The position numbers and the translations under genes were made by a program. A stretch of DNA of 28,133 nucleotides from a virus, in IMG/VR virus record IMGVR_UViG_3300033388_001872, positions 1 to 28,133 of that record. One strand, 5' to 3'. This document shows, piece by piece, positions 6,491-27,892 of this stretch (positions within the stretch are counted from its first letter, which is position 1; each line of letters opens with the position of its first letter). The notes beneath the pieces are model-generated. The model had not been told where the DNA came from and did no database searches. It saw nothing but the letters and a program-made list of their open reading frames with translations.

Positions 6491-6511
6491 CCCTCTGCCT
6501 CCTGTTTAAGA

Positions 6512-7174: not shown

Positions 7175-7183
7175 GACAACCTC

Positions 7184-11669: not shown

Positions 11670-11672
11670 TAG

Positions 11673-12277: not shown

Positions 12278-12296
12278 TTTCTCCTCCTATTTAGTA

Positions 12297-12827: not shown

Positions 12828-13147
12828 GAGGTAGTCACCCTTGAACAAAGAATTTCCATCTCTCTATTCCGCTGGTTAAGATTGGTTACTGACTCAACCT
12901 GATAATTCTCGTTATTAAAAACTATCCTGTTCTTAGAAGTAATCCCTGTTGTATATCGAGTAATAAAACGAGCCTCTATCCTACTTACATTCTGTTGACC
13001 ATCCTCAAATTCACGCCCAGATAAAGGTTCAACACTCGCCCACCTTCCACCTACATCAGCCCAAGTAACATTGTCCGCACCATAACTATCTTGTGTTGAT
13101 GTAGACCGTTGTAACGTAATCCTCTTTCTTAAAAGACCCGCTCTCAT
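12824..13147 (-). CDS. Head-tail joining protein (SPP1 gp16-like)
   Basis: 107 residues. 'MRAGLLRKRITLQRSTSTQD', 'YGADNVTWADVGGRWASVEP', 'LSGREFEDGQQNVSRIEARF', 'ITSKNRIVFNNENYQVESV' and 'REMEILCSRV' follow the phage head-tail joining family closely (start with R-K-R-I-T-L-Q, then W-x-x-V-x-x-x-W-A-x-V-x-P). It functions as the head-completion stopper. It overlaps both neighbours by ATGA junctions. Confidence 0.9.
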   Translation of the reverse strand: MRAGLLRKRITLQRSTSTQDSYGADNVTWADVGGRWASVEPLSGREFEDGQQNVSRIEARFITRYTTGITSKNRIVFNNENYQVESVTNLNQRNREMEILCSRVTTS

Positions 13148-13761: not shown

Positions 13762-13915
13762 AATTAACCTCTTTAGTTCTTACTGGCTCATTTTTCAATC
13801 CTTTAACACAAAGGATGCTATTTATATGTTCTGACTCTGGCTTGCTACATACTGGACACAGTTTTAACTCATTCACGTGAACTCTATTTTCAACTTCCCT
13901 GTTATAATCCTTCAT
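13736..13915 (-). CDS. Small Zn-finger-like protein, 59 residues
   Basis: The ATG at 13915 lies one base after the stop of the Rossmann protein, behind GGGGGTAAT. The 59-residue product has C-P-V-C at residues 20-23 (LKLCPVCSKPE), another Cys in 'SILCVKGL' and a C-E-H near the C-terminus, which could form a zinc site. It overlaps the connector start by 26 bases. Spacing and ribosome binding site make it a credible gene. Function unknown. Confidence 0.55.
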   Translation of the reverse strand: MKDYNREVENRVHVNELKLCPVCSKPESEHINSILCVKGLKNEPVRTKEVNCEHIKANK

Positions 13916-13916
13916 A

Positions 13917-14837
13917 TTACCCCCATATCTTATCCATCTCTTTTATCGCCTGTTCAGCCCCTATATATTGCTGAATCTTATTGTTAGAGATAAGGCTTAT
14001 CTGTTCTTCTTTAGCCTTCTTAGTGTTCATCATCTTAAGAATTGAGTTCCGCTTCTTCTTCCACTTTGTTTCTTTAGGCTCGTCAAATCCATAAAGGAAT
14101 CTAACTTTGAGAAGGTCGGCAGTATCGGGAATGAAAACCTTAATCCCCATCCCTCTTGCTATGCCTAAAAAGTATTCACAAGAAGGTCTTTGATGATGGT
14201 ACTCAGTGTCAACTGCCATATCGACACCGTAAACGTGAATTTCCTCAAAGCCTTCGTGTATCGCTAGAGCCAGCATCCAAGAGATAGAGTTAGTAAAGTA
14301 CTCGCCAAACTTCTCTAATACCTGTGGTAATGGATACGCTATGCTTGTTGGTACGATATCCCAAGACTTTTGCATATAGACAGGGCAATTAATATCACTC
14401 GCCCACTTACCCAAGTCCTTAAGATAATCATTTACTGGTTGCCCTCTAAAGTCGGGATTATCTCTACGCTTGTAAATCTCTCCATCCTTACTTATGTCAT
14501 GTATCTCAAACCACCTGTAACGGTCTGGATGTGCTTCAATTAAAGGATAAAGATTATTAACACCCCAAATCTCAAACTCATCATCTTTAAATGGAGCTTC
14601 ACCTTTTGAATCCGCACAACCGACAATGGCAACCTTCTTACGTCTCTTCCTAGTGATGACTCTCTGTTTCTGTTCTACTTCAACTACAGGCCATTCGGGT
14701 GTCGCTTCTTTGATTGCCCCTACACAAGAAGTACGCATAGTTACAAGTTCTTCCTCTTTTGCCACTTCTTTCTTCTTAGCCTTCTTCTTAGTAACCTTTT
14801 TCTTAATTGGTGTATCGTCTGCTATCTTTATAACCAT
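13917..14837 (-). CDS. Rossmann-like protein resembling DUF115/GT42-type sugar transferases
   Basis: 306 residues. Residues 1-68 are a Lys-rich, probably disordered extension. The core begins 'KVAIVGCADSKGEAPFKDDE' then 'FEIWGVNNLYPLIEAHPDRY' (Rossmann strand plus loop). Later 'NSISWMLALAIHEGFEEIHV' runs into 'YGVDMAVDTEYHHQRPSCEY' and 'GIKVFIPDTADLL'. The pattern S-x-x-x-x-x-x-x-A-x-x-x-G-F-x-x-I-x-x-x-G-x-D-M is shared with DUF115/MptE-like and GT42 sialyltransferase-type folds. Phages often carry such a gene near capsid genes, with unknown function. Here it sits between a capsid-associated gene and the neck genes, in a phage that also encodes NeuA and NeuB. Transferase activity is inference; no catalytic His can be assigned safely. 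Confidence 0.5.
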   Translation of the reverse strand: MVIKIADDTPIKKKVTKKKAKKKEVAKEEELVTMRTSCVGAIKEATPEWPVVEVEQKQRVITRKRRKKVAIVGCADSKGEAPFKDDEFEIWGVNNLYPLIEAHPDRYRWFEIHDISKDGEIYKRRDNPDFRGQPVNDYLKDLGKWASDINCPVYMQKSWDIVPTSIAYPLPQVLEKFGEYFTNSISWMLALAIHEGFEEIHVYGVDMAVDTEYHHQRPSCEYFLGIARGMGIKVFIPDTADLLKVRFLYGFDEPKETKWKKKRNSILKMMNTKKAKEEQISLISNNKIQQYIGAEQAIKEMDKIWG

Positions 14838-14899: not shown

Positions 14900-15667
14900 T
14901 TATGTACTCTTTATATTGGTACTGGCTAACTGGAAAGGCTCTTTGTAACGCATACCCTTCTTGATAGCACATACAGCGAGATTGACCGAAGTAACCGCTG
15001 TAGTTATGTGAATACCAACATAAGCACTTGTTGAGTTTAAGTCCTCAGATTTCACTGAAAAGATAACCTGTGACTTCTCACTCGTAAGGCCGTAAGCACC
15101 TGCCACACCTGTAAGACTCAAGTTGGTTGAAGCTGTGTTATTAACTCGAATCTGTACGTTAGCAGTTGAGACTGTAGCCGCTGTAAGACCCTGTAGAGCC
15201 GCTTCAGTCGAAGCATTAATGCCGCTTGACAAAGTATTCATGGACTCTTCAAGACCCTCAGCACTTGTAGAACCTGAATTAGAACCAAAGGTCAGAGCCG
15301 TAGCCGCTGGGGCAGTCGAGAAAGTCCAAGTAACACCGTTTACAACAACCGTCTGCGCTCCTGTAGCCGCTGTGGTCATCGTAATCAAAGCCTTCTTGAC
15401 CTTACTCAATGTCTCCGCAGTTGTCGGGCCTAGTGTCGCTGTAAGACCTCCGATTGTTGCGTTAGTAGAGAGTAGGTTATCTCCACTCTGTCTGACCGTA
15501 ATGGTCGGGGTTATCGCTGTAGCCGCCGCCAAAGCTGTACCCATACCAACTACGAAAGTTACCTCTTCGCAATCGTGCATGGAATATGCGCCACTCAATC
15601 CTGACGTTGCTGACGATATACTGATTAGTGAATTATTTAGCTGATACTCTTCTGCAACTCTGTTCAT
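14900..15667 (-). CDS. Possible head decoration / capsid-associated protein
   Basis: 255 residues, low in charge and very rich in Thr, Ser, Ala and Val (VRQSGDNLLSTNATIGGL, TTAATGAQTVVVNGVTWTFS). The core has a repeated beta-strand character, and 'GAQTVVVNGVTWTF' resembles small beta modules in other phage structural proteins. The C-terminal 'KSEDLNSTSAYVGIHITTAV' is followed by a basic end. It comes immediately after the major capsid gene, with AAGGAGG before the ATG, where decoration proteins are normally encoded. The family is not recognised, so the role is inferred from position. Confidence 0.45.
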   Translation of the reverse strand: MNRVAEEYQLNNSLISISSATSGLSGAYSMHDCEEVTFVVGMGTALAAATAITPTITVRQSGDNLLSTNATIGGLTATLGPTTAETLSKVKKALITMTTAATGAQTVVVNGVTWTFSTAPAATALTFGSNSGSTSAEGLEESMNTLSSGINASTEAALQGLTAATVSTANVQIRVNNTASTNLSLTGVAGAYGLTSEKSQVIFSVKSEDLNSTSAYVGIHITTAVTSVNLAVCAIKKGMRYKEPFQLASTNIKST

Positions 15668-15691: not shown

Positions 15692-16957
15692 TTAGGCCAG
15701 TATTACAAACGGGCTGACTGTATTTGATGTTGAACCTTCAAGCGGAATTGGCTCTGATAACCAAGACTGTCCATCCACTCTCCAAGTTATTCTAAAAGCA
15801 CCCTCGTTGTTCTGGAAACGATAATGCTCACTAAACGCTACAAATGGGCCACTACCATCCTTGATAAGATACTTACTAATATCAAGTAGCATCAAATCAC
15901 CAGTTGAACCAAGAGCAGGTGAACGCTCATTATAGAGAACTGGAATACCAAGGAGAGTCGGTGGGATATTAGCCGCCGCAGAATGTATCCAAAGGTTATT
16001 ACTTCCAGCATCTGCAATTGTAGTCAACTGAGGAATCGTGGTCTGTGATGTTACCCAAACCAACGAGCTACCTCTAAAAAGCATCCTTGCATACATACCA
16101 ACGATATCTGCATATGCAATCTGACTAGCCGTTGCTCTAGCAACTTCAATCTTACAAGGGGAGTTTGTTATACCCAATGCACGATTGACTCCAGAACCCT
16201 GTAGGAAGTCAGTATCTTCCGCACCTGCAACCGCAAGCCTCATCTGTTCACGGATAAAGGTATCAGCCGCCGCCCAGTTAGTCATAAGCTCGTTACTAGC
16301 GGTCATGAAAGCTGATATCCTTCTAGGCTGTAGTGAAACCTGTTTGATTTTAGCGTCTGTCTCGGTAATGCTGTCCGACTCGCCATCATGGTTAATAACT
16401 ACGCCACCATACATATTTTCACTTGATGTCTGGTCAAGAGTATTAATCTTAATCTCAGCATCAGGTGGTGAGCCTGCGGGGATGACTGTCGCTCTCGGTC
16501 TGACAATCGCCTCCTGTGGGGATACACTTAAAAGACCTTCCATGAACTGGTCAGGTATAGCATAACCTCCAGAAGTACCGTTCTTCATCTGCTGGACTCT
16601 CATTTCAGCAAGTCTTACGTCATCAGGGTTACTCCTGATTGTAGCGAAGAACTCACCAAGACTTCCGAACTCCTCATCAAGTCCATTCGCCCTAGTTATG
16701 ATACCTGAAGGCTTATAGAGTTTATCCACCTCCTCAAGGTCATCTCTTTCATCCTTCAGCTTCTTTTTTCTCGCCTCGGCCTCATCAGCCTTGCGAATTT
16801 CCTCTTTGACTTCCGTAAGCGAAGTATCAAAGTCTGTAAAACTCTTTTCCTCTTCCTCTGTGAAGTCTCTCTTCTCTTCGTCTGCCTTTGAGATAAGAGC
16901 TTCCATATCAGTAACTATAGAATCTCTGCTCTCATGCAGTTCTACAAGTGTCTTCAT
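15692..16957 (-). CDS. Major capsid protein, HK97 fold
   Basis: 421 residues from the ATG at 16957, which overlaps the protease stop (TAATG) behind AAAGGAGG; longer in-frame starts lack support. Residues 1-90 form a charged coiled-coil delta/scaffold domain (LVELHESRDSIVTDMEALIS, then DFTEEEEKSFTDFDTSLTEV), to be removed by the prohead protease. The mature part begins near 'QMKNGTSGGYAIPDQFMEGL' and has 'ISAFMTASNELMTNWAAADT', 'DTDFLQGSGVNRALGITNS', 'PTLLGIPVLYNERSPALGS' and 'YLIKDGSGPFVAFSEHYRFQ', the standard course of HK97-type capsid proteins. Length and neighbours fit. Confidence 0.93.
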   Translation of the reverse strand: MKTLVELHESRDSIVTDMEALISKADEEKRDFTEEEEKSFTDFDTSLTEVKEEIRKADEAEARKKKLKDERDDLEEVDKLYKPSGIITRANGLDEEFGSLGEFFATIRSNPDDVRLAEMRVQQMKNGTSGGYAIPDQFMEGLLSVSPQEAIVRPRATVIPAGSPPDAEIKINTLDQTSSENMYGGVVINHDGESDSITETDAKIKQVSLQPRRISAFMTASNELMTNWAAADTFIREQMRLAVAGAEDTDFLQGSGVNRALGITNSPCKIEVARATASQIAYADIVGMYARMLFRGSSLVWVTSQTTIPQLTTIADAGSNNLWIHSAAANIPPTLLGIPVLYNERSPALGSTGDLMLLDISKYLIKDGSGPFVAFSEHYRFQNNEGAFRITWRVDGQSWLSEPIPLEGSTSNTVSPFVILA

Positions 16958-17535
16958 TATTTGTCCTCCTTTGCTTTTCTTAGTTTTAGTTTCTTTTTTA
17001 AAAGGTTTAACTTCCAAGGTTTATTGTCTTTCTGCCATATATCGTGTGAACGAACCGCCACGGCTGTGCCTTCGTAAGCGGGGAAAGTAACGGGCGATAT
17101 ATCAAATAGCCTGACCTCCTTGAGAGTCCTTAAATCTGGTTCTCCATTTTCACCTTCCCGCCATTCCTCTGCTACGGTCTGGAAACCAAAACTCATCTGG
17201 TCAATATCACCTCGTTTTATACTCGTCATTAAATCCCTAGCAAACTGTGTATCTGGGGGTGTCACCTTTATCGCTAGTCCATGCTTATCCTCCCTAAGTT
17301 CAAGTGTCCCTGCCTTGTTACGTCCTAAAACATGATTAGGGTCGTGATTAAATAAAGCCCTAACGTCATCTACCTTAATAGAGTCTTTGAACGCACCAGG
17401 GGCAATCCTCTCGTTAAAACCCATGATGGAAGTCTCTTCGTTAAAGACTGCCGCATGACCTTGTAAGACAGGTGGCCCTTCTCCATCCTCTCTAGTCTCG
17501 ATATTAAATGTAAAAGCTCTTACTTCTTTATCCAT
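16957..17535 (-). CDS. Prohead protease, HK97 / U35 family
   Basis: 192 residues. 'GHAAVFNEETSIMGFNERIA' then 'PGAFKDSI', 'RALFNHDPNHVLGRNKAGTL', 'DTQFARDLMTSIKRGDIDQM', 'SFGF', and 'LKEVRLFDISPVTFPAYEGT' are the family signature. The likely catalytic residues are His64 (F-N-H-D) and Ser115 (Q-M-S-F-G-F). It cleaves the delta domain of the capsid protein and itself during head maturation. The C-terminus is a Lys-rich tail. It is coupled to the capsid gene by TAATG. Confidence 0.93.
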   Translation of the reverse strand: MDKEVRAFTFNIETREDGEGPPVLQGHAAVFNEETSIMGFNERIAPGAFKDSIKVDDVRALFNHDPNHVLGRNKAGTLELREDKHGLAIKVTPPDTQFARDLMTSIKRGDIDQMSFGFQTVAEEWREGENGEPDLRTLKEVRLFDISPVTFPAYEGTAVAVRSHDIWQKDNKPWKLNLLKKKLKLRKAKEDK

Positions 17536-18396: not shown

Positions 18397-18907
18397 AAGA
18401 TACCCTCGTTCTTATTATTCCGCCACCTTGACCACTTTGATAACTTAAAGATAGTGTGTCTTGTGGCTTTAAAATCAATTCATCTTCCCAAACGTTCCTA
18501 TCACCAACGGCCTGTGTATACCAACGGTCTATCTCATCCCCTTCTCTTGTAAGTACGGGATTACTGTCAAGACAAGATACCCCTGCCTGTCTATCGCCAT
18601 CTATATTCATCGGAGTTGTCGCATCCCCACCTCTCTCCAACTGCCTACCTATCGAGATAAAGAAGTAATTGTCCTGATTGGGAAACCCCGTTATCTTCGG
18701 TACTATCATCTGATGCACAATCTTAGTAATTTTAATATCCCTTGTAGCACTGATATTCTTCATATATAAGGCTACTGTTTCTTGACCGTCCAACTGAGCC
18801 TTGCCCGAAACCCTAAACTGTGACATCGGCATCGACTCTATAACTTCTATTGCCCGTTCTTCACTCTTCTTCAATATCTGTCTCTTCGTCATCTTGATTA
18901 TCTTCAT
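18386..18907 (-). CDS. Unknown protein between portal and protease, 173 residues
   Basis: A basic N-terminal helix (MTKRQILKKSEERAIEVIES) precedes a beta-rich region with 'NYFFISIGRQLERGGDATTP' and 'ELILKPQDTLSLSYQSGQGG'. The coordinate given uses the most upstream start, overlapping the portal end by 47 bases. ATG at 18892 or a start further down at M-P-M-S-Q are alternatives, and no ribosome binding site clearly decides between them. Together with the 282-residue gene it forms a two-gene insert between portal and protease. The segment resembles receptor- or ligand-type virion proteins only in composition, and no function can be assigned. Confidence 0.45.
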   Translation of the reverse strand: MKIIKMTKRQILKKSEERAIEVIESMPMSQFRVSGKAQLDGQETVALYMKNISATRDIKITKIVHQMIVPKITGFPNQDNYFFISIGRQLERGGDATTPMNIDGDRQAGVSCLDSNPVLTREGDEIDRWYTQAVGDRNVWEDELILKPQDTLSLSYQSGQGGGIIRTRVSFGN

Positions 18908-20113
18908 CTGGAGTACCAGGACTTATATTAGGATTCTCAAATACATCCCCCGCTGACCCTATAGAGTTCATGTTCTCCAGCTTCCTCACTTCATTAACCG
19001 ACATATAACGGTTTTGAATAGCTAACGCATAAGACTCATTTCTTGTTTTCTTGTCACCCCTCAAAAGACCATCCAGATTATGCTCTGTAAAAAACTTCTT
19101 CTGGTCATTGGAGAGCAAAAGGTTCTTGTCGGCAGACTGTTCAATCCTGACCGCCCAAGGCCGGATAGTGTGAACAACAAAGTTGAGGTTTTGTTGCTCC
19201 ACACTGGCAAACGTAGCGGCCTTATCCGCATGACCTATCAAAATGGACGGGACTTTAAATATTCTCGCTATATCCTCAACCTGAAAAGCCCTAGTCTCTA
19301 AGAACTGAGAATCTTCGTTAGAACTTCGTTAGAAAAGCCTACCTCTTTCCATGTCAACCCTTCCTCAAGAATTGCAACCTTATGAGCGTTCCCTCCCCCT
19401 GAATGTGCTTCCTGCCAACTCTTCTTAAGTCTTGTCTGAGCATCTTCTTTAATCACACCCGGAGTTTCCAGAATCCCACCAGGTTTGGCATCATTTGAAA
19501 ATAATCTAGCCCCATATTCCTCTGTAGCCAGAGAAAGACCAATAGCCTCCCTTGCCATACCTATTGGAGAGAGTCCAACAAGTCCATCAGTAGAAAGACC
19601 CTTAACGTGCCATATCTTCTCTCTAGGAAAGACCTGATACTTCCCATCTTCCCAAGTGTACTGATAGAATACACGCCCCTTCTCTTCCATGACCTGCATA
19701 CGAGCAGGGTTGAGGATAATAAGACTCTTAGTCCTACCTATACCGTTCATCTCCTTAAAGGCGTAGAAATTACCCCTAAGAGTAAGGTGTGCCATCATCG
19801 TCTCTCTAAATTCAAACGAAGTCATATGGTCATTGGGATTTTGAAAGAGTAATTGGAGGGAATGATTCTCGGCGTGGTTCTTACCATCTGCTGTGCGTTC
19901 GTAAACCTTATATGGAAGGGAAGCGATAGCCTCAGAAAGAACACGCACACAAGCATAAACCGCTGATGTCTTCATAGCACTATCAGCAGTAACTGTTTGG
20001 CCTGATTTTGAGATAGCTCCAAAGACACCACCCCAGATAGGGTCGTGAGGACTATTAGAATTGGCTCTTAGCTCTCCACCTAAAACATTTATGAGTTTAC
20101 TTCTTATTCCCAT
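18861..20113 (-). pseudogene. Portal protein, HK97 family, disrupted by 11-bp tandem duplication
   Basis: The 5' frame (20113-19298) encodes 'MGIRSKLINVLGGELRANSN', 'MKTSAVYACVRVLSEAIASL' followed by 'PYKVYER', 'FEFRETMMAHLTLRGNFYAF' and 'EYGARLFSNDAKPGGILETP', typical portal segments, then shifts out of frame at 'EVGFSNE'. The other frame continues with 'DSQFLETRAFQVEDIARIFK' then 'VPSILIGHADKAATFASVEQ' and 'VVHTIRPWAVRIEQ', the expected portal C-terminal half. Removing one 11-bp copy at 19313-19334 restores a single 413-residue frame, a normal portal length. Portal is essential, so the mutation would be lethal unless it is an assembly error or a minority variant. The ATG has no clear ribosome binding site and directly follows a T-tract. 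Confidence 0.88.
19313..19334 (-). repeat. Exact 11-bp tandem duplication inside portal gene
   Basis: On the plus strand CTTCGTTAGAA occurs twice in direct succession (19313-19323 and 19324-19334). Eleven is not a multiple of three, so the second copy shifts the portal reading frame. With one copy the coding sequence reads G-F-S-N-E-D-S-Q-F-L-E, matching the family consensus. Confidence 0.95.
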
Positions 20114-20158
20114 AAAAAAAGCCGAATCCAGTAGATTGCTCTACCTAATCCGACTCGG
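20114..20158 (-). terminator. Terminator-like hairpin abutting portal start codon
   Basis: On the minus strand CCGAGTC pairs with GATTCGG (7 bp, one G-T). Inside it GTAGA pairs with TCTAC around a GCAA tetraloop, and CTTTTTTT follows the stem and runs straight into the portal ATG. This is the layout of an intrinsic terminator or attenuator. AGCC at about 20172-20175 could instead pair with GGCT at the base of the stem, giving an alternative fold. It may end transcripts of the cargo island or attenuate those starting at the promoter just upstream. Confidence 0.5.
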
Positions 20159-20222
20159 TTGTTCCGATATTGGCTAAAAGTTAAAAAGCGTTATCACCAA
20201 CAGGCTCGATTGTCTCGATACT

Positions 20223-20262
20223 CTATTAGTGTATTAGTCTATACTAATATAAGCATACTAAT
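20223..20262. repeat. Operator-like cluster of ATTAGT/ACTAAT repeats
   Basis: Four copies of ATTAGT or its complement ACTAAT lie at 20225-20230, 20233-20238, 20243-20248 and 20257-20262. The middle pair forms a perfect palindrome TATTAGT-CTAT-ACTAATA (20232-20249). The outer copies extend the symmetry imperfectly. It overlaps the candidate -10 box, so it could be a repressor or activator site. Confidence 0.45.
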
Positions 20263-20275
20263 TAGAGGAAAGCAA
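20246..20275 (-). promoter_or_regulatory. Candidate sigma-70-type promoter for structural genes
   Basis: On the minus strand TTGCTT (20275-20270) and TATATT (20251-20246) are separated by 18 bases. The -10 box matches TATAAT at five of six positions; the -35 box is weak. It lies in the only sizeable gap (168 bases) between the cargo island and the head genes, and would give a leader of about 125 bases before portal. By-eye promoter, so uncertain. Confidence 0.35.
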
Positions 20276-20281
20276 GCTTTT

Positions 20282-20467
20282 TTACGTTGAACTATCAATT
20301 ATTTTTATCATCGCCTCCGAAACAGGACGTTCTGAGGGCTTCACAGTCTCTATTTTCCTATATAGAGTGACCTTGCCAGCGATTAGAGTCAATTCTAGGC
20401 TACCGTAAAAGCTCTCACGGTTTAAATTGATAATTAGGTTTTTTATATCGTTGGGGTCGAACTCCAC
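20282..20467 (-). CDS. Small unknown protein, 61 residues
   Basis: Starts with GTG overlapping the methyltransferase stop by one base (TAGTG). The sequence 'MEFDPNDIKNLIINLNRESF' then 'YGSLELTLIAGKVTLYRKIE' suggests a small alpha/beta domain, 'NLNRESFYGSLELTLIAGKV' resembling short phage and plasmid proteins with a single sheet. It is the last gene of the cargo island and is translationally coupled to FkbM. Function unknown. Confidence 0.5.
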   Translation of the reverse strand: MEFDPNDIKNLIINLNRESFYGSLELTLIAGKVTLYRKIETVKPSERPVSEAMIKIIDSST

Positions 20468-21216
20468 TACGACCTCGTAAAGATTACGTTCTCTGCTTTG
20501 ATGCCTTCTTTCTTTCTACGGATACGAGAGTGGTTAGGGTGGTTGTTGAAATCGTTATCAGTAGTATATTGATAAACCCACTCCACATCCTCCTTAAGTG
20601 TGCCCCCATCATTACATTCAATTAAAAAAGATTTCATGCGTATATTCTCTAATTCCCAATACATCCCTTCTACAATTTCTTTTTCGTGTCCGTCTACATC
20701 AATCTTGACATGATAATCTCCCATATCAAAATCTTCCATAAAATTCAAGAAACTTAAATGTTGTATAAGATATTCCGTTTGCGATTGAAATTTATCCCCT
20801 TGCTCATCTACTGGACTATTAATCTGTGTTCCTGATTGTCCAACTTCATCTCTAGGCACATATATCTTTTCAAAGCGGGGACAGGGATAATGTTTTTCAT
20901 CAAATGCCACATTAAAACAATGCACATTCTTAAACCCATTCAACTCTACGTTCTGTAAAAGCCTAATAAAGTTCTTTGGCATAGGCTCAAAGGCGTATAT
21001 TTGAGAGTTAGGGTAGAGAGAGGCACAATAAAGGGAATAGATACCTATGTTAGCACCTATGTCGAAAAAGGCTTCTCCGTCTTTGAAAGATTCTAGCCAG
21101 GATAGTGTTTCACATTCCTTAAACCAGAAACTGTCATATCTGTATTCTTCTATTCCATTTTCACAATACATCTTAAAATAAACTTTCCCATCTTTCTCTA
21201 TTGTTTTGATAGCCAT
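20467..21216 (-). CDS. FkbM family SAM-dependent methyltransferase
   Basis: 249 residues. SAM-binding motif I is 'FFDIGANIGIYSLYCASLYP' (about residues 49-68), motif II is 'IYAFEPMPKNFIRLLQNVEL', and the late motif 'YHVKIDVDGHEKEIVEGMYW' is diagnostic of the FkbM family. Members O-methylate sugars and natural products. Here it could cap a surface or virion glycan, in keeping with the NeuA/NeuB genes upstream. The ATG lies within the last 19 bases of the HNH gene behind AAGGGGG. The family is certain, the substrate is not. Confidence 0.88.
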   Translation of the reverse strand: MAIKTIEKDGKVYFKMYCENGIEEYRYDSFWFKECETLSWLESFKDGEAFFDIGANIGIYSLYCASLYPNSQIYAFEPMPKNFIRLLQNVELNGFKNVHCFNVAFDEKHYPCPRFEKIYVPRDEVGQSGTQINSPVDEQGDKFQSQTEYLIQHLSFLNFMEDFDMGDYHVKIDVDGHEKEIVEGMYWELENIRMKSFLIECNDGGTLKEDVEWVYQYTTDNDFNNHPNHSRIRRKKEGIKAENVIFTRS

Positions 21217-21905
21217 CTCGCACCGCCCCCTTTTGATTGATTATCACTAGCCCATAATGGCTGGAGATTCTCTAATGCCCAACATTCTTTAAATTCTTTA
21301 TCGTCATAAGATTGAATACTAAAAATAGATACTGGCGTAACATGATCTATATGCCATTTCCCATAATTATCCCAAGTCATACCAGCAATAAAAAGTGACT
21401 CCAAATGAGACATCAACTCTTCCAATGAATAATTGACCAAACTTTTCCAACTTTTACCTTCTTTTCTCCCTTTCAAGCTACACCATATAAGATGTTTCAT
21501 GTTTCTATTAATTTTCACTTGTGGCTTCTTATATCTTTCACGCTCATATATTCGGGCTTTTCCTCGCCTACTTTTTAAGTACATTTTTATTTTATCTGGA
21601 TTAGCCTGTCTCCACTCCCTCCCTTTCTGCAATATGTTCTCTCGATCTCTCTGATAGCGATCTTTACGGTGTTTTATTATTTTATCTTTATTCTCAATAA
21701 AATAGATTTTCTTCTTTTCTAATATTGACTCACTATTCTTATCGTAAGTTTTTCTTTTCCTTTTGCGAACTCTTTCTGGATGTTCTTCTTGCTCTCTTTT
21801 TTTGTAGGCTAAAACCTTTTCTTTATTTGCCCAATAATATTCTCTTGCTTTCTTTTTCACCTTTTCCTTATCACGTTGATAAATCTCAGCCCTAGAAAGA
21901 CTCAT
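21198..21905 (-). CDS. HNH endonuclease with basic helical repeat N-terminus
   Basis: 235 residues. Residues about 1-130 are strongly basic, built from imperfect repeats of the type Y-x-x-N-K-D/E-K-I/V-x-x-x-K-x-x-Y (EYYWANKEKVLAYKKREQEE, IYFIENKDKIIKHRKDRYQR), likely DNA-binding helices. The C-terminal nuclease motif is 'WHIDHVTPVSIF' followed by 'ECWALENLQPLWASDNQSKG', with the H-x-D-H...N-L-x-P-L-W...N-x-x-K-G pattern of HNH enzymes. Such free-standing enzymes are often homing endonucleases in phages. It overlaps FkbM by 19 bases and appears more A+T-rich than its neighbours. ATG behind AAAGGAGAG. Confidence 0.85.
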   Translation of the reverse strand: MSLSRAEIYQRDKEKVKKKAREYYWANKEKVLAYKKREQEEHPERVRKRKRKTYDKNSESILEKKKIYFIENKDKIIKHRKDRYQRDRENILQKGREWRQANPDKIKMYLKSRRGKARIYERERYKKPQVKINRNMKHLIWCSLKGRKEGKSWKSLVNYSLEELMSHLESLFIAGMTWDNYGKWHIDHVTPVSIFSIQSYDDKEFKECWALENLQPLWASDNQSKGGGARWLSKQ

Positions 21906-21922
21906 TTTCTCTCCTTTAGTTT

Positions 21923-22150
21923 CTATTTTGCAAATAATAACCCAACTATCTTATTGTCCTGTAAATCAACACAGAACATATCTATCCCCCTAATTTTCTT
22001 ATTTGTAATAGGCAAACGCTTCCCAATAAGTTTATCTGATATTTCATCGTGAGTATATTCACCAATAAGTTTTGCTGAATAAGACCTGCCCCTATCCCGA
22101 ACTACATACGAGTCTCCAAGAAACTCAAATTCTATCCCATTAACTTTCAT
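21923..22150 (-). CDS. Small unknown protein, 75 residues
   Basis: ATG overlaps the previous stop (ATGA). The product 'MKVNGIEFEFLGDSYVVRDR' then 'GRSYSAKLIGEYTHDEISDK' and 'IDMFCVDLQDNKIVGLLFAK' has the look of a compact beta-barrel-like domain. It lies between the NeuA group and the HNH gene. No family recognised; its coupling to the 137-residue gene suggests they work together. Confidence 0.5.
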   Translation of the reverse strand: MKVNGIEFEFLGDSYVVRDRGRSYSAKLIGEYTHDEISDKLIGKRLPITNKKIRGIDMFCVDLQDNKIVGLLFAK

Positions 22151-22560
22151 TCTGCCCCCTTTTTGTCTAATATTTCCTTCCCACTCTCTCTACCCATTAT
22201 CCTCTTCGGGTCTTGGTACTTCTCTATATCTGTATATGCAAGTTTCCAATTAATACTTCTAGGTGGGCCGAACCCTTCTGGTGTGTATGATGAATCACCA
22301 TTATACGTTGAGAAGCCCATTGACCAATTATCCCCATGATAAGCCCAAACTCCAGGTACTTCCCGCATAACCCCATCAACCTCTTTTAATTCAGGGCAAG
22401 AGTAACCACTCTCACTCCAACCTCCAGAAAACGAACCGATATGACTATTGGGGTCTTTTAATATTTTCAACATCCGCTCACAGAAGTCAATCGCTAACAT
22501 CTTATCTCTTTTCATACGCTTCCAAACATGAGGCTGAACAGTAAACTCTCGCTTTTTCAT
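22147..22560 (-). CDS. Unknown protein, 137 residues
   Basis: ATG overlaps the NeuA-like stop (ATGA). The N-terminus is basic and helical (MKKREFTVQPHVWKRMKRDK, FCERMLKILKDP). The middle is rich in Gly, Trp and Tyr (GSFSGGWSESGYSCPELKEV, GVWAYHGDNWSMGFSTYNGD). The C-terminus is charged (PKRIMGRESGKEILDKKGAE). No catalytic motif can be named. The tight junctions to NeuA-like and 75-residue genes place it in the same cargo operon. Confidence 0.5.
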   Translation of the reverse strand: MKKREFTVQPHVWKRMKRDKMLAIDFCERMLKILKDPNSHIGSFSGGWSESGYSCPELKEVDGVMREVPGVWAYHGDNWSMGFSTYNGDSSYTPEGFGPPRSINWKLAYTDIEKYQDPKRIMGRESGKEILDKKGAE

Positions 22561-23282
22561 TTCATCTCCCTTAATTTAACAAGCCCCCTATTAACAAGTT
22601 CCTCTGCCAGTATCCAGTCGGTTTCTTCGTTTATATCAAATCCCTCATACCCTTCTGTGAAGTAAGGCATGATATGACCACCACAGACGTTACCGTATTT
22701 CTCTATCGTCCTCGTCCACATGATTTCAATAGAACCGTTTTGAACAAAGTATTCAGGTAAAGATTGAGTTGATTTAGTGAAATCTTCCTCTGCCCCTATC
22801 ATTATCGGAAGAATACCGTTACCGTTCTTGCACCACATCTTATGGGGGTGTTGGCTTACTCTCTCAACTGCCCTCATAGAATCAAAGCCTATATTACTCT
22901 TAAACTGCTCCATTGACTCTACTAACATCTTCTTTGTGCGGAAGGGGTTGGTAGGGCGAAGGATGCAGAGGGTATCGGGTTTATTATCAATTCTACCGTT
23001 TCGACAGAAATTTAATGTTAGAGCATCCTTTATCCACTCTATATCTGGACTATCATCTTGTGCGAATTCTTCTGGTCTTGGAAAATATTCTGCACCGTAT
23101 CTCTCTGCAATCATACCAATCTCTTTAGAATCAGTAGACACTATCACCCTATCATACACCCCTGATTCTACAGCCGTCCTTATCGTGTAAGCTAAAAGAG
23201 GGTGACCAAAGAAATCTTTAGTGTTCTTTGAGGGTATTCTTTTAGAACCCGACCTTGCAGGGATAAGGGCTATGGTTACCAT
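22557..23282 (-). CDS. neuA: CMP-nonulosonate (sialic acid-type) cytidylyltransferase, NeuA family
   Basis: 241 residues from the ATG at 23282, overlapping the SDR stop by seven bases. The N-terminal nucleotide-binding motif 'ALIPARSGSKRIPSKNTKDF' is the family hallmark (A-R-x-G-S-K-x-x-x-x-K-N). It is followed by 'GHPLLAYTIRTAVESGVYDR', 'VIVSTDSKEI', 'LRPTNPFRTKKMLVESMEQF' (matching the family's Q-P-T-S-P-L-R) and 'FVQNGSIEIMWTRTIEKYGN'. It transfers CMP from CTP to a sialic-acid-like sugar acid such as legionaminic, pseudaminic or N-acetylneuraminic acid; the sequence alone does not settle which. It lies in a cluster with NeuB and an SDR, an order reminiscent of flagellin and LPS nonulosonate gene sets. 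Confidence 0.88.
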   Translation of the reverse strand: MVTIALIPARSGSKRIPSKNTKDFFGHPLLAYTIRTAVESGVYDRVIVSTDSKEIGMIAERYGAEYFPRPEEFAQDDSPDIEWIKDALTLNFCRNGRIDNKPDTLCILRPTNPFRTKKMLVESMEQFKSNIGFDSMRAVERVSQHPHKMWCKNGNGILPIMIGAEEDFTKSTQSLPEYFVQNGSIEIMWTRTIEKYGNVCGGHIMPYFTEGYEGFDINEETDWILAEELVNRGLVKLREMK

Positions 23283-23959
23283 GCCTGAAACCCCGCATCC
23301 ACGAGACAATCCTGACCTGCGAACTCTTCACAACAGGCCGCAAACAAAAGAGCCTGTTGAACAGACTTCTTAGAGAGTATCCTTCCCATTGGGACGTTCT
23401 TCAAGAACTTCTCTTTAAATTCAGGGTCGAACTTACCGTTATCAAATGGGCCAAAGGCTATTGTTACCCCTCTTATTCCATATCGTCCATATTGAGTAGT
23501 GATACTTCGAGATAACTGTAACAACCCTGCCTTAGAAACGTTATACCCAACTGGCTTCTCCCATCCTTCCTCATAGTTGCGCCAATCAGCCCCACCGTAA
23601 GCCATAATAGAACTCACATTAATTACAACCCCGCCCTTCTCCTTCATAGCTGGAATGAAAGTCTCACAGACGTTAATAGCCCCATTTAGGTTAGTCTTTA
23701 CTATATCCTCATGACAACCAAAGAAAGAAGCATCCGAACCAGGGGGGTTGTCTATTGCCGCATTATTCACAATTATATCTGGCACTTCCCCCATCCTTAA
23801 AGCAAAATCTTTCAGGTCTGCGGGTACTCTCACGTCATATCTTGGAAACTTCAATTCATGGACGGTTGCCCCTGCTTGCTTTAGAGTCTCTACCCATACT
23901 GGCCCAAGATTCCCGTCCGAACCTGTCACTACTGCTACCTTACCTTTTAAACTAAACAT
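23276..23959 (-). CDS. Short-chain dehydrogenase/reductase (SDR), PtmA-like context
   Basis: 227 residues from the ATG at 23959, supported by GGGAGG upstream and the usual SDR opening 'MFSLKGKVAVVTGSDGNLGP'. The NAD(P) motif is T-G-S-D-G-N-L-G, then 'IIVNNAA' and the catalytic Ser in 'VINVSSIMAYGGADW' with Tyr/Lys in 'GYNVSKAGLL'. Near the C-terminus is 'EFAGQDCLVDAGFQ'. Between NeuB and NeuA, an SDR of this type matches PtmA-type genes of nonulosonate clusters, although the exact reaction is not settled by sequence. The stop codon overlaps the NeuA start. Confidence 0.85.
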   Translation of the reverse strand: MFSLKGKVAVVTGSDGNLGPVWVETLKQAGATVHELKFPRYDVRVPADLKDFALRMGEVPDIIVNNAAIDNPPGSDASFFGCHEDIVKTNLNGAINVCETFIPAMKEKGGVVINVSSIMAYGGADWRNYEEGWEKPVGYNVSKAGLLQLSRSITTQYGRYGIRGVTIAFGPFDNGKFDPEFKEKFLKNVPMGRILSKKSVQQALLFAACCEEFAGQDCLVDAGFQAW

Positions 23960-24080
23960 CCTCTGCCTCCCTTTCGTCTTCAATATGACAAGTAATTACA
24001 ATCGAACAAAATAAACCAATCGCAATCCCTAAAACAATAAGCCCTACATACATTGATAAACCCGGAAACCAAGTAGTCAT
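23952..24080 (-). CDS. Small single-TM protein, 42 residues
   Basis: ATG at 24080 behind GGGAGG, overlapping the preceding gene by four bases (ATGA), and ending TAG eight bases into the SDR. The sequence 'MTTWFPGLSMYVGLIVLGIA' continues into 'IGLFCSIVITCHIEDEREAE': a hydrophobic helix at about residues 10-31 and an acidic tail. Exact junctions and a good ribosome binding site support it as real. Its role in the cluster is unknown. Confidence 0.55.
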   Translation of the reverse strand: MTTWFPGLSMYVGLIVLGIAIGLFCSIVITCHIEDEREAEDV

Positions 24081-24283
24081 TCTGCCTCCCTTTCATAAAT
24101 GTTATACCACCCCGTCATAGTATCTAACTCTATCTTTATATTGCCCAACCTGTCTTTATAAGAATGAATCTTCCCCTTAAGACTTATCATATCCAAAGGC
24201 TCACCCTTATAGTAAATAGCTCCAGCTATCTCGTGAGGTGTAATATCACCATCTTTGATATGACCTTTGCCTGTCTTATTCAA
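24077..24283 (-). CDS. Small unknown protein, 68 residues
   Basis: The best start is TTG at 24283 behind AAGGAGGGGG; a longer in-frame ATG at 24343 lies deep inside NeuB and lacks that site. The product 'NKTGKGHIKDGDITPHEIAG' then 'AIYYKGEPLDMISLKGKIHS' and 'YKDRLGNIKIELDTMTGWYN' suggests a small beta domain with a charged end. It overlaps the NeuB stop by eight bases and is followed by the small TM gene. No family recognised. Confidence 0.5.
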   Translation of the reverse strand: MNKTGKGHIKDGDITPHEIAGAIYYKGEPLDMISLKGKIHSYKDRLGNIKIELDTMTGWYNIYEREAE

Positions 24284-25319
24284 AATCCCCCTCCTTGATT
24301 GAATTACTACTCGACAAATCGTTAATAGAAATCTTACCGTCAAGCCCTTCCAAGTCGTAAGGCTTCAACCCACCGCCCGGAGTCTTTAAAGCAAAGTCAT
24401 CCAAACAGACCTTCTCCCCTTTCTTTATCTCTCTTACAGGCCAGATACCTTTTGACATCTTCTCTATTGGTGCTTTCTCAGCCTCCAGAACTTTCTTCTC
24501 TCCATCCCCCAGCGCCCTCCTAACGCTTTTCAAATCTTGGCAGAGAGTAGCAAGCCCTTTTGGTTCTAAAGACAAACCGTGGTCTGTTCCTTTAGATGCT
24601 CGGTTAAGTGTAAAGTGAACTTCAATTATAGACGCTCCAAGATTAGCCGCCGCTAAACTCATATAGACAGACGGATGATGAGAAGAGAAACCAATAACAG
24701 TATCAGGATATCTTAAACGCATCTGCTCGATACACCTTAGATTCAAATCCTCCGCTTGGTTCGGGTAAGTAGCCACACAATGAAGGAAGGAAAATTCAGC
24801 ACGTCCTTTGAGTGTTAGATAAACCGTATCTATATCCTCAACCGTTGCTCCCCCTGTAGAGATAATCGTAGGTTTACCGAACTTAATTATATGCTCAATA
24901 AGAGGGATGTTGGTAATGTCAGCAGAAGCAATCTTGAAGGCTGGCATATTTACTCTATCTATAAAATCTGCTGACCGAATATCAAAAGCAGTTGAAAAGA
25001 AATCAAGACCTAAGTCCTTCGCTAAATGCGTTAATGCTTGGTATTCAACGATACCAAACTCTAAAAACTCCCTATGCTCCCCGTAAGTCTTGCCGTAAGA
25101 GTTGGCGTTATCGTAGGGCTTGTCGTAAAAGGCTTTTGTATAGAGGGTCTTGTTATCACGCTTCTGAAGCTTCACAGCATCAGCCCCCGCCCTCTTCGCC
25201 GCCCTGAACATCTTTTTACAAGTCTCTAAAGAACCCCCATGATTGTTGCCTATCTCAGCAATCACATAAACATCTGACTCATCATTAATGGTTCTACTCG
25301 CTATTTCTAGTGTTCTCAT
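24276..25319 (-). CDS. neuB: Sialic acid / nonulosonate synthase, NeuB family
   Basis: 347 residues from the ATG at 25319 with GGAG upstream; a TTG four codons earlier is weaker. The TIM-barrel NeuB domain shows 'VYVIAEIGNNHGGSLETCKK', 'AGADAVKLQKRDNKTLYTKA', 'FSFLHCVATYPNQAEDLNLR', 'VIGFSSHHPSVYMSLAAANL' and 'GASIIEVHFTLNRASKGTDH' leading to 'GLSLEPKGL'. The C-terminal antifreeze-like SAF domain is present ('GIWPVREIKKGEKVCLDDFA' then 'LKTPGGGLKPYDLEGL'). The enzyme condenses a hexosamine-derived sugar with phosphoenolpyruvate. It is the first biosynthetic gene of the island, two bases after the preceding stop. Which nine-carbon sugar it makes cannot be told. Confidence 0.9.
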   Translation of the reverse strand: MRTLEIASRTINDESDVYVIAEIGNNHGGSLETCKKMFRAAKRAGADAVKLQKRDNKTLYTKAFYDKPYDNANSYGKTYGEHREFLEFGIVEYQALTHLAKDLGLDFFSTAFDIRSADFIDRVNMPAFKIASADITNIPLIEHIIKFGKPTIISTGGATVEDIDTVYLTLKGRAEFSFLHCVATYPNQAEDLNLRCIEQMRLRYPDTVIGFSSHHPSVYMSLAAANLGASIIEVHFTLNRASKGTDHGLSLEPKGLATLCQDLKSVRRALGDGEKKVLEAEKAPIEKMSKGIWPVREIKKGEKVCLDDFALKTPGGGLKPYDLEGLDGKISINDLSSSNSIKEGDFE

Positions 25320-25321
25320 TT

Positions 25322-25690
25322 TTATCTCCAAGTTCTATGGGTTTCTGCAATCCACTCAGTACCATCATATTCTTCTATTTCCCAACTCACATCATCTGGA
25401 ATTTCAATTACTTCTAACCCCGCACAAGAACCATCAGCTTTTTCTCCCAATTCTTCAACGACTTTAATTAAATCTATATCATCTCTAGCAATATCTCTAT
25501 CACTAAAATAAGTATCATTATCCCAAATTTCCTTTCCTTCTTCATCTTTCCTTATAGGAGCTTTAGAATAATGAGGATAAAAATCATCTCCACCAACATA
25601 AAGTTTAAATCCTTTTAATTCCGCATATCTCATAACCCCAACTTTAGATAAACTAAAGCCCCCAAAACAACTGTTGATAACTATTTTCAT
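25322..25690 (-). CDS. Conserved phage hypothetical protein, 122 residues
   Basis: 'MKIVINSCFGGFSLSKVGVM' at the start and 'VIEIPDDVSWEIEEYDGTEW' then 'IAETHRTWR' at the end define a family I recognise from many phages and some bacteria without a known function. The middle is acidic with 'YFSDRDIARDDIDLIKVVEE'. The ATG follows AGGAGG that overlaps the terminase stop. It is the first gene after the large terminase, before NeuB. The function is unknown. Confidence 0.7.
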   Translation of the reverse strand: MKIVINSCFGGFSLSKVGVMRYAELKGFKLYVGGDDFYPHYSKAPIRKDEEGKEIWDNDTYFSDRDIARDDIDLIKVVEELGEKADGSCAGLEVIEIPDDVSWEIEEYDGTEWIAETHRTWR

Positions 25691-25701
25691 CCCTCTACCT
25701 C

Positions 25702-27414
25702 CTATAAGCTGATGATACCCCTGTCCTCGTATATCGAGCCACCCTCATCCCCTACCGCCCTTGAAAGACCCATAATAGCACTTATCACACCATCTATCTT
25801 TTCTGTTGATACCGCCTTACTTGGTTTCATGTTCCCCGAAGCATCAAACTGAACAACCGTATTACTAACCATCCAAGTCATACAAGGGTTTTTATCATGC
25901 ACCAACTCCCTTGAGAATATCATCTTCTCAAATTCCTTAGTCGGGCCTGACATAGCACTTATACCCTGAGAGAATTGTATCAAGTGTCGGGGAGCGTGTT
26001 TAACATTCTCAGCCTCAAACCCCATATCGATTAAATCGTTGACCAACTTAGAAGCCCCCCACTTATCATAAGCCACCTCCAACAAATCGAAGTCCTGACA
26101 GTCTTGGTCTAACTGTTTAAGAATAAAGCCGTAGTCAACAGTCTCACCTGGAGTCGGGGTTATAAACCCCTGCCGTACCCAAGTGTCATAAGGTACTCGG
26201 TCTTTCCTAACCCTATCCTGTATATTCTCTTTAGGTATCCAGAAACGAGGGACTAACTTATACCCTTCCCCTTCCTCTCTGGGAGGGAAAATCAAAACCA
26301 AAGCCGATATATCGATATTGGAAGAAAGATCAAGGCCAGCATAACAGGTACGCCCTTTCAAGTCTTTCAGGTCTATGTCTTGTCCACAAGCATCCCACTT
26401 ATCCGTTGGTATCCACTTGGTAACTGAGTCCGTCCAGATGTTCATATGGAGACGGAGGAAACTATTTAAAGCCGTTGGTACTTCTTTAGCTTTCCTAGCC
26501 TTCATCCTCAAATCTTCAATGTTAGTACAGACCGACAAGTTAGGGTTAGCTTTTATCCAAAGGCTCTCATCTTCCCAATCATCATCCTCTTCGTCTTCGC
26601 TCTCAGCCAAGTCTAAGGTGTAGATAATCCCGAAGTGAGTCTCGTCCTTAATCAACCCTTCTAATACTTTCTCCGTGTAGTCGTGCTGTTCCCAACAGAT
26701 AGACTGCTTATTAAAACCAGCCGTAGTGATAGCCATGATAAGAGGTTGTTTCCTTGCCCCTGTAGCTGTAGTAATGACCTCCCATAAGTCTCTGGTCTTG
26801 TGTGCGTGAAGCTCATCTATCAACCCTCTCGATACATTCAAACCGTCAAGAGTCTTACTATCAGAACCTAAAGGCTCGAACTTAGAACCTGTCTCAACTA
26901 CATGGAGATTGTTCTTGTAAATCTTAATAACCTTGCTGAGTTGTGGAGACTTCCGAACCATCATAGAGGCGGCACTATGACTAATCCTAGCTTGGTCAAG
27001 CTTTGTTGCAACACTGTACACCTCTGCCCCTCCCTCCTTATCTGCACTCACCCCTTGAAGCCCAACCCCCGCCAATAGCTCTGTCTTACCTGACTTCCTC
27101 GCTGTCTCAAGGTACGCATATCTAAATCTACGGCTACCATCTGACTCATTCATCCATCCAAAGATGTTAGCAAGGATGAACTGTTGCCAAGGTTCTAGCT
27201 TAAATACCTTCCCCGACCACTCCCCCTTAGTAAACTTGAGAAGCTTGAAGAACTTAAAGACCTTCTCAACAGCCTTCTCGTCAAAATATATACCCAACTT
27301 GTCAGCATTATCAAGGTCAGACAGGTATCTAACTGTAGCCAAACGTACCCACTTACAGGCTAAGACCTTCCCTGAACCTACGTCTAAAGCATATTGATGG
27401 TAAGGCTTAGACAT
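25702..27414 (-). CDS. terL: Terminase large subunit (Terminase_1 / HK97-like)
   Basis: 570 residues. The ATPase half has Walker A 'ARKSGKT' (about 105-111), Walker B 'GLIDELHAH' (197-205) and a coupling motif 'AITTAG' (228-233). The RNase H-like nuclease half has acidic residues at D362 ('AGLDLSSNIDISALVL'), D450 ('VAYDKWGAS') and D541 ('EKIDGVIS'). It cuts and pumps DNA into the prohead. It overlaps the small subunit by eight bases. Both halves are intact. Normally the portal follows directly; here a cargo island intervenes. Confidence 0.95.
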   Translation of the reverse strand: MSKPYHQYALDVGSGKVLACKWVRLATVRYLSDLDNADKLGIYFDEKAVEKVFKFFKLLKFTKGEWSGKVFKLEPWQQFILANIFGWMNESDGSRRFRYAYLETARKSGKTELLAGVGLQGVSADKEGGAEVYSVATKLDQARISHSAASMMVRKSPQLSKVIKIYKNNLHVVETGSKFEPLGSDSKTLDGLNVSRGLIDELHAHKTRDLWEVITTATGARKQPLIMAITTAGFNKQSICWEQHDYTEKVLEGLIKDETHFGIIYTLDLAESEDEEDDDWEDESLWIKANPNLSVCTNIEDLRMKARKAKEVPTALNSFLRLHMNIWTDSVTKWIPTDKWDACGQDIDLKDLKGRTCYAGLDLSSNIDISALVLIFPPREEGEGYKLVPRFWIPKENIQDRVRKDRVPYDTWVRQGFITPTPGETVDYGFILKQLDQDCQDFDLLEVAYDKWGASKLVNDLIDMGFEAENVKHAPRHLIQFSQGISAMSGPTKEFEKMIFSRELVHDKNPCMTWMVSNTVVQFDASGNMKPSKAVSTEKIDGVISAIMGLSRAVGDEGGSIYEDRGIISL

Positions 27415-27892
27415 CCAATATACCTTCTTCCTCTGGTTCTGGTTTGCCTTCTACCTTTAGCCTCGGTCTACTCGTAGGGTCAAGACCAAGATTACTTGAG
27501 TAACCCCTGAACTGAGTCAGTAAGTTATTATACTGAGTACAGGCGGGGTTCGTCTTAGCATCGTAATACTTACTACCATCCTCCCTCATCTTCTCAACAT
27601 ACAACAACCGACCATGCTCTTGAATGTCTTTCCTCAACCCTCTTAAGTCAGATACTATCCCACAGAAGTTAGCCAGAGTATCTAAGTCAAGCTCAGACAA
27701 GATACGAGTCTTAATCAACAAGGGAGCGTAATAGTTCCAAGTGGAGCGTGCCACCTCATCTCCCTCTAAATGCTCTGGACATTCAACACCCTCTAAAAGA
27801 GTCGGCATAGGTTCATCCTCATTAGTACGACATGGTTGGAGAGTACCCTGTAAGTCCTTAGTGACAGTAGGTTTTGGTTTGGCGCCTCTCAT
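27407..27892 (-). CDS. terS: Terminase small subunit, P27 family
   Basis: 161 residues. 'MRGAKPKPTVTKDLQGTLQP' (the R-G-x-K-P-K-P opening), 'PEHLEGDEVARSTWNYYAPL', 'LSELDLDTLANFCGIVSDLR' and 'FRGYSSNLGLDPTSRPRLKV' match P27-type small terminases that recognise the packaging site. Its ATG overlaps the preceding stop (ATGA), and its end overlaps the large subunit by eight bases. Confidence 0.92.
   Translation of the reverse strand: MRGAKPKPTVTKDLQGTLQPCRTNEDEPMPTLLEGVECPEHLEGDEVARSTWNYYAPLLIKTRILSELDLDTLANFCGIVSDLRGLRKDIQEHGRLLYVEKMREDGSKYYDAKTNPACTQYNNLLTQFRGYSSNLGLDPTSRPRLKVEGKPEPEEEGILDV

Follow-up and report, generated by a model that had tools for sequence, protein, structure and literature searches.

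Glycans on phage structural proteins are known from mycobacteriophages, in which the capsid and tail tube proteins are modified (Freeman et al. 2023, cited in PMC12619734 and PMC12691614). The locus described here is similar in that glycans on structural proteins are proposed. The excerpts of these sources describe no sialic-acid-like synthesis genes for mycobacteriophages, whereas the head gene block of the window has genes for both synthesis and CMP activation. In Acinetobacter baumannii, the prophage proteins EpaA and EpaB, a CTP transferase-reductase and an SDR, act on the host's pseudaminic acid, converting it for the capsule (PMC12053666). Both systems would have phage-borne enzymes of the CTP_transf_3 and SDR families that work on nonulosonates, but EpaA/EpaB come without NeuB, and no position between terL and portal is reported for them. 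Cyanophage AG-345-L05 (MH319754) also groups SDR, CTP_transf_3, NeuB (36% identical) and HAD-like genes; its NeuB, however, is short and lacks the SAF domain, its CTP transferase belongs to another subfamily, and the genes form part of a large glycan cluster. The nearest NeuB (45–50%) and CTP transferase (49%, a Nitrospirota protein) were found in the NeuB–SDR–transketolase cassettes of Nitrospirota and Streptomyces (L012, L226, L227, L008). These have the same gene set but are cellular and contain an aldehyde dehydrogenase, unlike the phage island. The solved fold closest to the predicted model of H306, a protein encoded near the capsid gene, is that of the GT42 enzymes CstI and CstII of Campylobacter jejuni. 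In contrast to these, H306 has no sequence-level match, seems by eye not to keep the catalytic His position and shares about 15% identity. Our partial literature coverage yielded no report of a phage head block containing genes for nonulosonate synthesis.

The window, a 28,133-nt stretch of an IMG/VR virus record (IMGVR_UViG_3300033388_001872), carries the features listed in Table 1. The first-pass annotation had placed NeuB, SDR, cytidylyltransferase and FkbM genes between terL and portal, which are usually adjacent. Profile matches and intact frames bore this out. In 72 relatives with both genes visible, the median gap between the TerL and portal matches was about 190 nt, and none of the 72 had NeuB, SDR, CTP transferase or FkbM in it. 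The ATG of the CTP transferase overlaps the stop of the SDR. The interval does not consist purely of nonulosonate genes: it also contains the phrog_16527 ORF, small unknown ORFs and an endonuclease-VII/HNH-like gene, which is probably a homing-type passenger. The earlier observation is confirmed, and its extent is greater than first described. The GT42-like candidate (13917–14837), the conservation of the module elsewhere and the broken portal frame had not been noted.

Table 1. Features of the head gene block and of the interval between terL and portal.
Feature	Position	Strand	Evidence
terS	27407-27892	-	phrog_83
Terminase large subunit (upstream border of island)	25702..27414	-	phrog_9, E 5e-175
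Uncharacterised phage-family ORF, phrog_16527	25322..25690	-	E 1.5e-29
Full-length NeuB-type synthase of 347 aa, including the SAF domain	24276..25319	-	PF03102, E 5e-70
Unknown small ORF	24077..24282	-	ORF listing alone
SDR oxidoreductase, 227 aa	23276..23959	-	adh_short_C2, E 8e-19
CMP-sugar synthetase (CTP transferase)	22557..23282	-	CTP_transf_3, PF02348, E 4e-21
137-aa ORF without family	22147..22560	-	profile searches
Endonuclease-VII/HNH-like gene	21198..21905	-	phrog_1035, E 1e-7
FkbM-family methyltransferase	20467..21216	-	TIGR01444, E 2e-22
Structured stretch: hairpin and T7 run, ends at portal start	20114..20300	-	z -4.4
Portal (downstream border), interrupted frame	18861..20113	-	PF04860, E 3e-69, two pieces
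Head maturation protease	16957..17535	-	phrog_80, E 3e-62
Major capsid protein (MCP)	15692..17017	-	phrog_10, E 7e-46
Ser/Thr-rich protein, candidate acceptor	14900..15667	-	family conserved between MCP and H306
H306, putative CMP-sugar transferase of GT42-like fold	13917..14837	-	AlphaFold core, PDB fold matches

The portal frame is interrupted near 19320 in the window and intact in relatives. A programmed frameshift was rejected, since the relatives show one uninterrupted frame. The structured stretch 5' of the portal was rejected as a conserved RNA element, being not strong in most relatives; the T run ahead of the portal also occurs in relative L013. Rfam gave no matches. The promoter/terminator scan was no richer than shuffles and did not list the pre-portal hairpin. 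Expression from a late operon, as had been suggested from the gene placement, stays a prediction; the hairpin and T7 run abuts the portal start.

Missing catalytic residues would have spoken against the first-pass annotation. In the NeuB alignment, all 12 PEP-, metal- and sugar-binding positions checked were kept in 49 of 49 homologues. The assignment away from KDO enzymes also held, given the NeuB family match (5e-70) and the much higher score of the CTP transferase with PseF (137.7 bits) than with the KdsB models (42.1 bits). By alignment, the CTP transferase has the N-terminal ARxGSKxxPxKN motif of CTP_transf_3 (ARSGSKRIPSKN), and the SDR, with 37% identity to the cassette SDRs, retains the Ser and YxxxK.

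NeuB scored below the equivalog cut-offs for N-acetylneuraminate synthase (TIGR03569, 260 vs 400 bits) and pseudaminic acid synthase (TIGR03586, 229 vs 340 bits), and the CTP transferase scored below that for PseF (TIGR03584, 137.7 vs 205.7 bits). The alignment placed a Thr of the window's NeuB at the equivalent of Arg314, the SAF-domain residue that we take to be the N-acyl contact of the Neu/Leg/Pse synthases. This position is Arg in the reference loci L005, L010 and L011, and Ser in the Nitrospirota/Streptomyces cassettes. With NeuB under both equivalog cut-offs and lacking the Arg314 equivalent, the product may be something other than Neu, Leg or Pse. The CMP-activated sugar is probably nonulosonate-like and not Neu5Ac or Pse, because Arg314 is replaced and the nearest cellular cassettes carry a transketolase and a KdsC-type phosphatase. 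We left the sugar unnamed, since the references for Neu/Leg/Pse placement were few and defined by context (L005, L010, L011). The earlier claim that both key NulO steps are encoded therefore stands for the class of chemistry and not for a named NulO. The precursor genes neuC, legB/legC and pseB/pseC were absent from the window and the mapped relatives, as had been noted for the hexosamine-precursor enzymes, and the host may supply Neu/Leg/Pse precursors. A transketolase is present in several relatives and a HAD phosphatase in one, as in the most closely related cellular cassettes, so the precursor may be something other than a hexosamine.

About 15 other independent IMG/VR contigs carry the cassette TerL–NeuB–SDR–CTP transferase–(transketolase)–FkbM–portal at this site, with the FkbM methyltransferase kept at the equivalent place. 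These relatives came from alignment-based scans; scans with the single NeuB protein picked up a single cellular locus and nothing viral. Among the capsid relatives with both flanks visible, nine had the island together with the capsid-linked H306 and 17 had neither; these counts are not independent, because most carriers within the capsid clade belong to a single lineage. The distances of the island genes track those of MCP and portal, and dN/dS was low for NeuB, CTP transferase, FkbM and H306. The fixed site and the tracking distances speak against the earlier term "cargo island" if it is taken to mean a recent insert: we saw neither the sporadic presence nor the separate history from flanking structural genes that mark a moron. 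An integrase was found in one of the 12 partial relatives searched.

The AlphaFold core of H306 was predicted with a pLDDT of 92 and a pTM of 0.88. In the PDB fold search with the predicted model, the best 15 matches were all CstII/CstI, GT42 sialyltransferases (E from 5e-5), and GT42 was the sole high-ranking fold in two models. The TM-scores against CstII were modest, at 0.48–0.56 of the query, and none of 16 H306 members matched Pfam, including the GT42 profile. The position of the catalytic His188 of CstII, aligned by eye and not by structural superposition, is Gln in 42 of 44 H306 sequences. Of 13 NeuB phages with a different backbone, 11 carried H306, whereas none of 46 island-free structural relatives did; a search of 24 Nitrospirota genomes gave no H306. 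H306 with no NeuB in view was seen in L087, L098 and a Microcystis phage. H113, Y213, Q216 and R217 of H306 are conserved, and an intein-like insert sits at the conserved motif of the protein. The Ser/Thr-rich family has a mean S+T content of 24% in 47 relatives. From the predicted fold, H306 would be a putative GT42-like CMP-sugar transferase, with the transferase activity inferred.

On balance, we favor a conserved module that glycosylates the phage head with a CMP-activated nonulosonate-like sugar. NeuB would condense PEP with an aldose, or an aldose phosphate, to a nonulosonate-type acid, the sugar being made or tailored by the SDR and, in some relatives, by the transketolase or HAD phosphatase. 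The CTP transferase would convert the acid to the CMP-sugar. H306 would then transfer the sugar, most likely to the head, where the Ser/Thr-rich protein or MCP itself may be the acceptor, and FkbM would methylate it. What sequence or prediction shows is the class of each enzyme, the catalytic residues of NeuB, the fixed site, inheritance together with the head genes and the GT42-like fold. From these we infer the activities, the sugar and its acceptor, and a benefit such as virion shielding or changed adsorption. The points for the module are the roughly 15 contigs, the nine-to-17 split, the tracking distances, the dN/dS values, the NeuB residues and the GT42 fold, together with the distribution of H306 (11/13 vs 0/46), the Ser/Thr-rich neighbor and the intein-like insert. 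The points against it are the missing Arg314, the Gln aligned by eye at the His position, the modest TM-scores, H306 without NeuB in view, the single lineage of most carriers and the interrupted portal.

The first-pass annotation had offered surface remodelling and virion glycosylation side by side. The virion option gained support, and host-surface remodelling became the weaker one because the transferase candidate adjoins the capsid gene. In such remodelling, a CMP-nonulosonate would be made or diverted, and host transferases or H306 would place the sugar on LPS, capsule or flagella for receptor masking or superinfection exclusion. Nonulosonates are usual surface sugars and prophage EpaA/EpaB alter host capsular pseudaminic acid (PMC12053666), but the island lies inside the head genes and shares their history, and the rarity of integrase among the partial relatives also argues against this route, which we regard as unlikely.

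Less probable still is another role, whether a different H306 chemistry on the GT42-like fold, phage DNA modification, or a KDO-like ulosonic acid from a NeuB-like enzyme. DNA-modifying phage glycosyltransferases exist (Pyle 2024, as cited in PMC12619734). The sub-threshold NeuB scores, the absent Arg314 equivalent, the H306 position without the expected His and the KdsC-like phosphatase of the nearest cellular cassettes would fit such a role. Against it stand the NeuB family match with its SAF domain, the preference for PseF over KdsB, GT42 as the sole top fold and the joint presence of H306 and NeuB in phages with other backbones; the record, which is partial, gave no recognisable base-modification genes. 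Chance capture of a bacterial sugar cassette without a phage role is favored by the existence of cellular relatives and by the interrupted portal frame of this record, but it is strongly disfavoured by the conserved site in many contigs, the distances tracking the capsid genes, the low dN/dS and the intact catalytic residues, and we give it very little weight.

Head glycosylation by such a module invites a wider and more tentative proposal, to which we lean less than to the module itself: a clade of uncultured tailed phages may make and CMP-activate its own nonulosonate-type sugar, perhaps of undescribed chemistry, with a capsid-linked GT42-like enzyme putting it on the head and the pathway wired into the head-assembly block. 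The proposal also draws attention to the GT42-like phage protein family and the unexplained transketolase-containing nonulosonate cassette common to bacteria and phages. Phage virion glycosylation is so far a matter of a few mycobacteriophages. If the proposal is true, a lineage with synthesis, activation and a candidate transferase in one head block would depend far less on its host for it. Phage particles would then carry virus-made sialic-acid-like coats, and the clade would offer a ready system for asking what sugar coats do for the virion.

The record is linear, one entire IMG/VR entry of 28,133 bases. On its minus strand, terS and terL are followed by a phrog_16527 ORF, NeuB, a small ORF, an SDR, a CTP transferase, two small ORFs, an endonuclease-VII/HNH-like gene, an FkbM methyltransferase, and the portal gene. 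After the portal come two unknown genes, the head protease, the major capsid protein (MCP), a Ser/Thr-rich protein, H306 (a putative CMP-sugar transferase), a head-tail adaptor, and more head and tail genes. The NeuB, SDR, CTP transferase, and FkbM genes named in the first-pass annotation were all present, with strong family scores. Start and stop codons overlap between the SDR and the CTP transferase, and between the latter and the next ORF, which suggests a single transcript. The strongly structured stretch ahead of the portal would be a terminator-like element or a regulatory RNA. A similar T run precedes the portal in the related contig L013, and in the window as in L013 the hairpin and T run may separate transcription of the island from that of the head genes. 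The portals of relatives are uninterrupted; because its own portal frame is broken, the window copy may be a defective phage or an assembly error.

Coordinates of features in the window and in other records met in the searches
Record	Feature	Position	Strand	Remarks
Window	H306	13917-14837	-	second gene after MCP
Window	portal	18861-20113	-	frame broken by short tandem duplication near 19320
Window	structured stretch	20114-20300	-	z -4.4; ends in a hairpin and T7 run abutting the portal start codon
L003 (related contig)	TerL	4032-6113		split by long in-frame insert, intein-like in look
L004 (cyanophage AG-345-L05)	gene after NeuB and HAD	7142-7816		C-terminal motif H306-like by eye; no Pfam match
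L006 (LR756508, uncultured phage, 484-kb)	four GT29 genes adjoining NeuB gene	5253-10074		PF00777, eukaryote-type sialyltransferase, E 1e-26 to 1e-32
L008	cellular cassette	6001-9849		uncharacterised
L012	cellular cassette	7995-14513		uncharacterised
L226, L227	cellular cassette			uncharacterised
L169	H306 insert	12182-13930		in frame; starts Cys, ends His-Asn
L189	H306 insert	2407-3966		in frame; starts Cys, ends His-Asn
L190	H306 insert	4426-5985		in frame; starts Cys, ends His-Asn

A terL-alignment scan of IMG/VR gave 80 related contigs, 72 of them with both terL and portal. The median gap between the two matches was near 190 nt, and none of the 72 gaps held NeuB, SDR, CTP transferase, or FkbM. 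The adjacency of terL and portal, described as usual in the first-pass annotation, is thus the normal state of the relatives. The island is not a one-off. Searching IMG/VR with an alignment of the window NeuB and its Nitrospirota and Streptomyces relatives yielded 49 NeuB-coding loci; a CTP-transferase alignment added four matches, two on contigs already in the set. Contigs were mapped by tblastn and ORF calling, each arrangement being seen as far as the contig extends. The common order was TerL-NeuB-(HAD)-SDR-CTP transferase-(transketolase)-(H306 copy)-FkbM-portal-protease-MCP (L013, L014, L015/L064, L016/L017, L023/L024, L025/L026, L031/L032, L036, L065). TerL through FkbM was in view in L028, with the portal further downstream; L040 and L043 retained only NeuB at the site. 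An MCP scan blind to the sugar genes (80 contigs, 68 non-redundant) added the full set in L162, L169, L170, L177, L183, and L196. All carriers in the capsid clade are metagenomic contigs, many partial.

These contigs form two groups. Of the non-redundant contigs in which the flank downstream of MCP and the stretch from TerL to portal can both be seen, nine combined an H306 gene following MCP with sugar genes between TerL and portal, 17 had neither, and none had one alone (Fisher p 3e-7, although the nine are not independent events, being largely one clade). One of the nine, L150, carries FkbM and an H306 copy without NeuB. A shorter H306 copy adjoins FkbM inside the island of L014, L016/L017, L150, L183, and L187; the copy after MCP is likewise present in L150, L183, L187, and the contig of L017 (as L179), so some phages hold two GT42-like genes.

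Pairwise protein distances of NeuB, SDR, CTP transferase, and FkbM correlated with those of MCP (r 0.53-0.67), and with the portal for NeuB (0.68) and FkbM (0.73), values comparable to that of MCP versus portal (0.70); 0 of 5000 permutations attained the observed values. NeuB and TerL distances showed no correlation (0.07). Because the distances track MCP and portal but not TerL, the island has travelled mostly with portal and capsid, terL having been exchanged. IQ-TREE placed the 18 capsid-clade NeuB proteins on one side of a weakly supported branch (61/17) and separated them, with strong support, from neuC-linked synthases and PseI. In close pairs, dN/dS was low for NeuB (0.02/0.36), CTP transferase (0.03/0.43), FkbM (0.14/0.89), and H306 (0.06/0.67 and 0.08/1.17); the SDR pairs were unusable, either too closely related or too saturated.

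The closest cellular relatives lie in a Nitrospirota MAG cassette, NeuB-KdsC-type HAD-SDR-aldehyde dehydrogenase-CTP transferase-transketolase, whose first part recurs in two further Nitrospirota genomes; a Streptomyces plasmid carries NeuB-SDR-transketolase. The tabulated cellular cassettes, from Nitrospirota and Streptomyces, follow NeuB-(HAD)-SDR-(ALDH)-(CTP transferase)-transketolase. Several phages of the clade encode a transketolase (two domains recognised), and L013 a HAD. The checked catalytic positions of NeuB were retained in all 49 homologues. Arg314 of N. meningitidis NeuB (1xuu structure) contacts the N-acyl group; the entry 4ipi is listed as the R314A mutant. At the equivalent position, the neuC-linked synthases and PseI used as references have Arg, but the window NeuB has Thr and its group has Ser, Ala, Cys, or further residues. 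The window NeuB scored under the equivalog cut-offs of both NeuB and PseI. From these sequences, we infer a nonulosonate-type product of a non-N-acylated, possibly phosphorylated aldose, and name no specific sugar.

H306 had no match in Pfam, NCBIfam, PHROG, or PDB sequences. An AlphaFold model built with 16 relatives had a confident core, and its best 13 PDB matches were all GT42 sialyltransferases. A second core model (residues 60-250, 44 relatives; pLDDT 92.4, pTM 0.88) had CstII/CstI as all of its best 15 matches (E from 5e-5, probability 1.00, TM 0.48-0.56 of query). Since the position of the catalytic His188 of CstII is apparently Gln in nearly all members (aligned by eye), we call H306 GT42-like by predicted fold, a putative GT42 enzyme at most. 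H306 occurs in 11 of the 13 viral records that carry NeuB on another backbone, in none of the 46 long records from island-free structural relatives, and in none of the 24 Nitrospirota genomes. As exceptions, L087 and L098, two partial records excluded from the 46, and a Microcystis phage show H306 but no NeuB in view. H306 of L169 and L189/L190 bears an intein-like insert between GVDMAVD and (S/T)EYxxQRPS, its most conserved motif. Inteins favour active sites as their location. Elsewhere, the GT29 and NeuB genes of L006 form a second, unrelated phage sialylation-like set.

The Ser/Thr-rich protein encoded between MCP and H306 is a candidate acceptor: its mean S+T content is 24% (47 relatives), compared with mostly 8-16% in other window proteins. 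A few contigs with no H306 in view likewise encode relatives of this protein. The chief rival to virion glycosylation is a change of the host surface, for which the EpaA/EpaB prophage offers a precedent (PMC12053666). The location of the genes and their shared inheritance with the head genes speak for the virion, short of proof. Mycobacteriophages have virion glycans, according to the passages of PMC12619734 and PMC12691614 citing Freeman 2023. Most likely, judging from gene content and the predicted fold, the phage enzymes would make a nonulosonate-like sugar and CMP-activate it, H306 would transfer it onto a head protein, and FkbM would methylate it.
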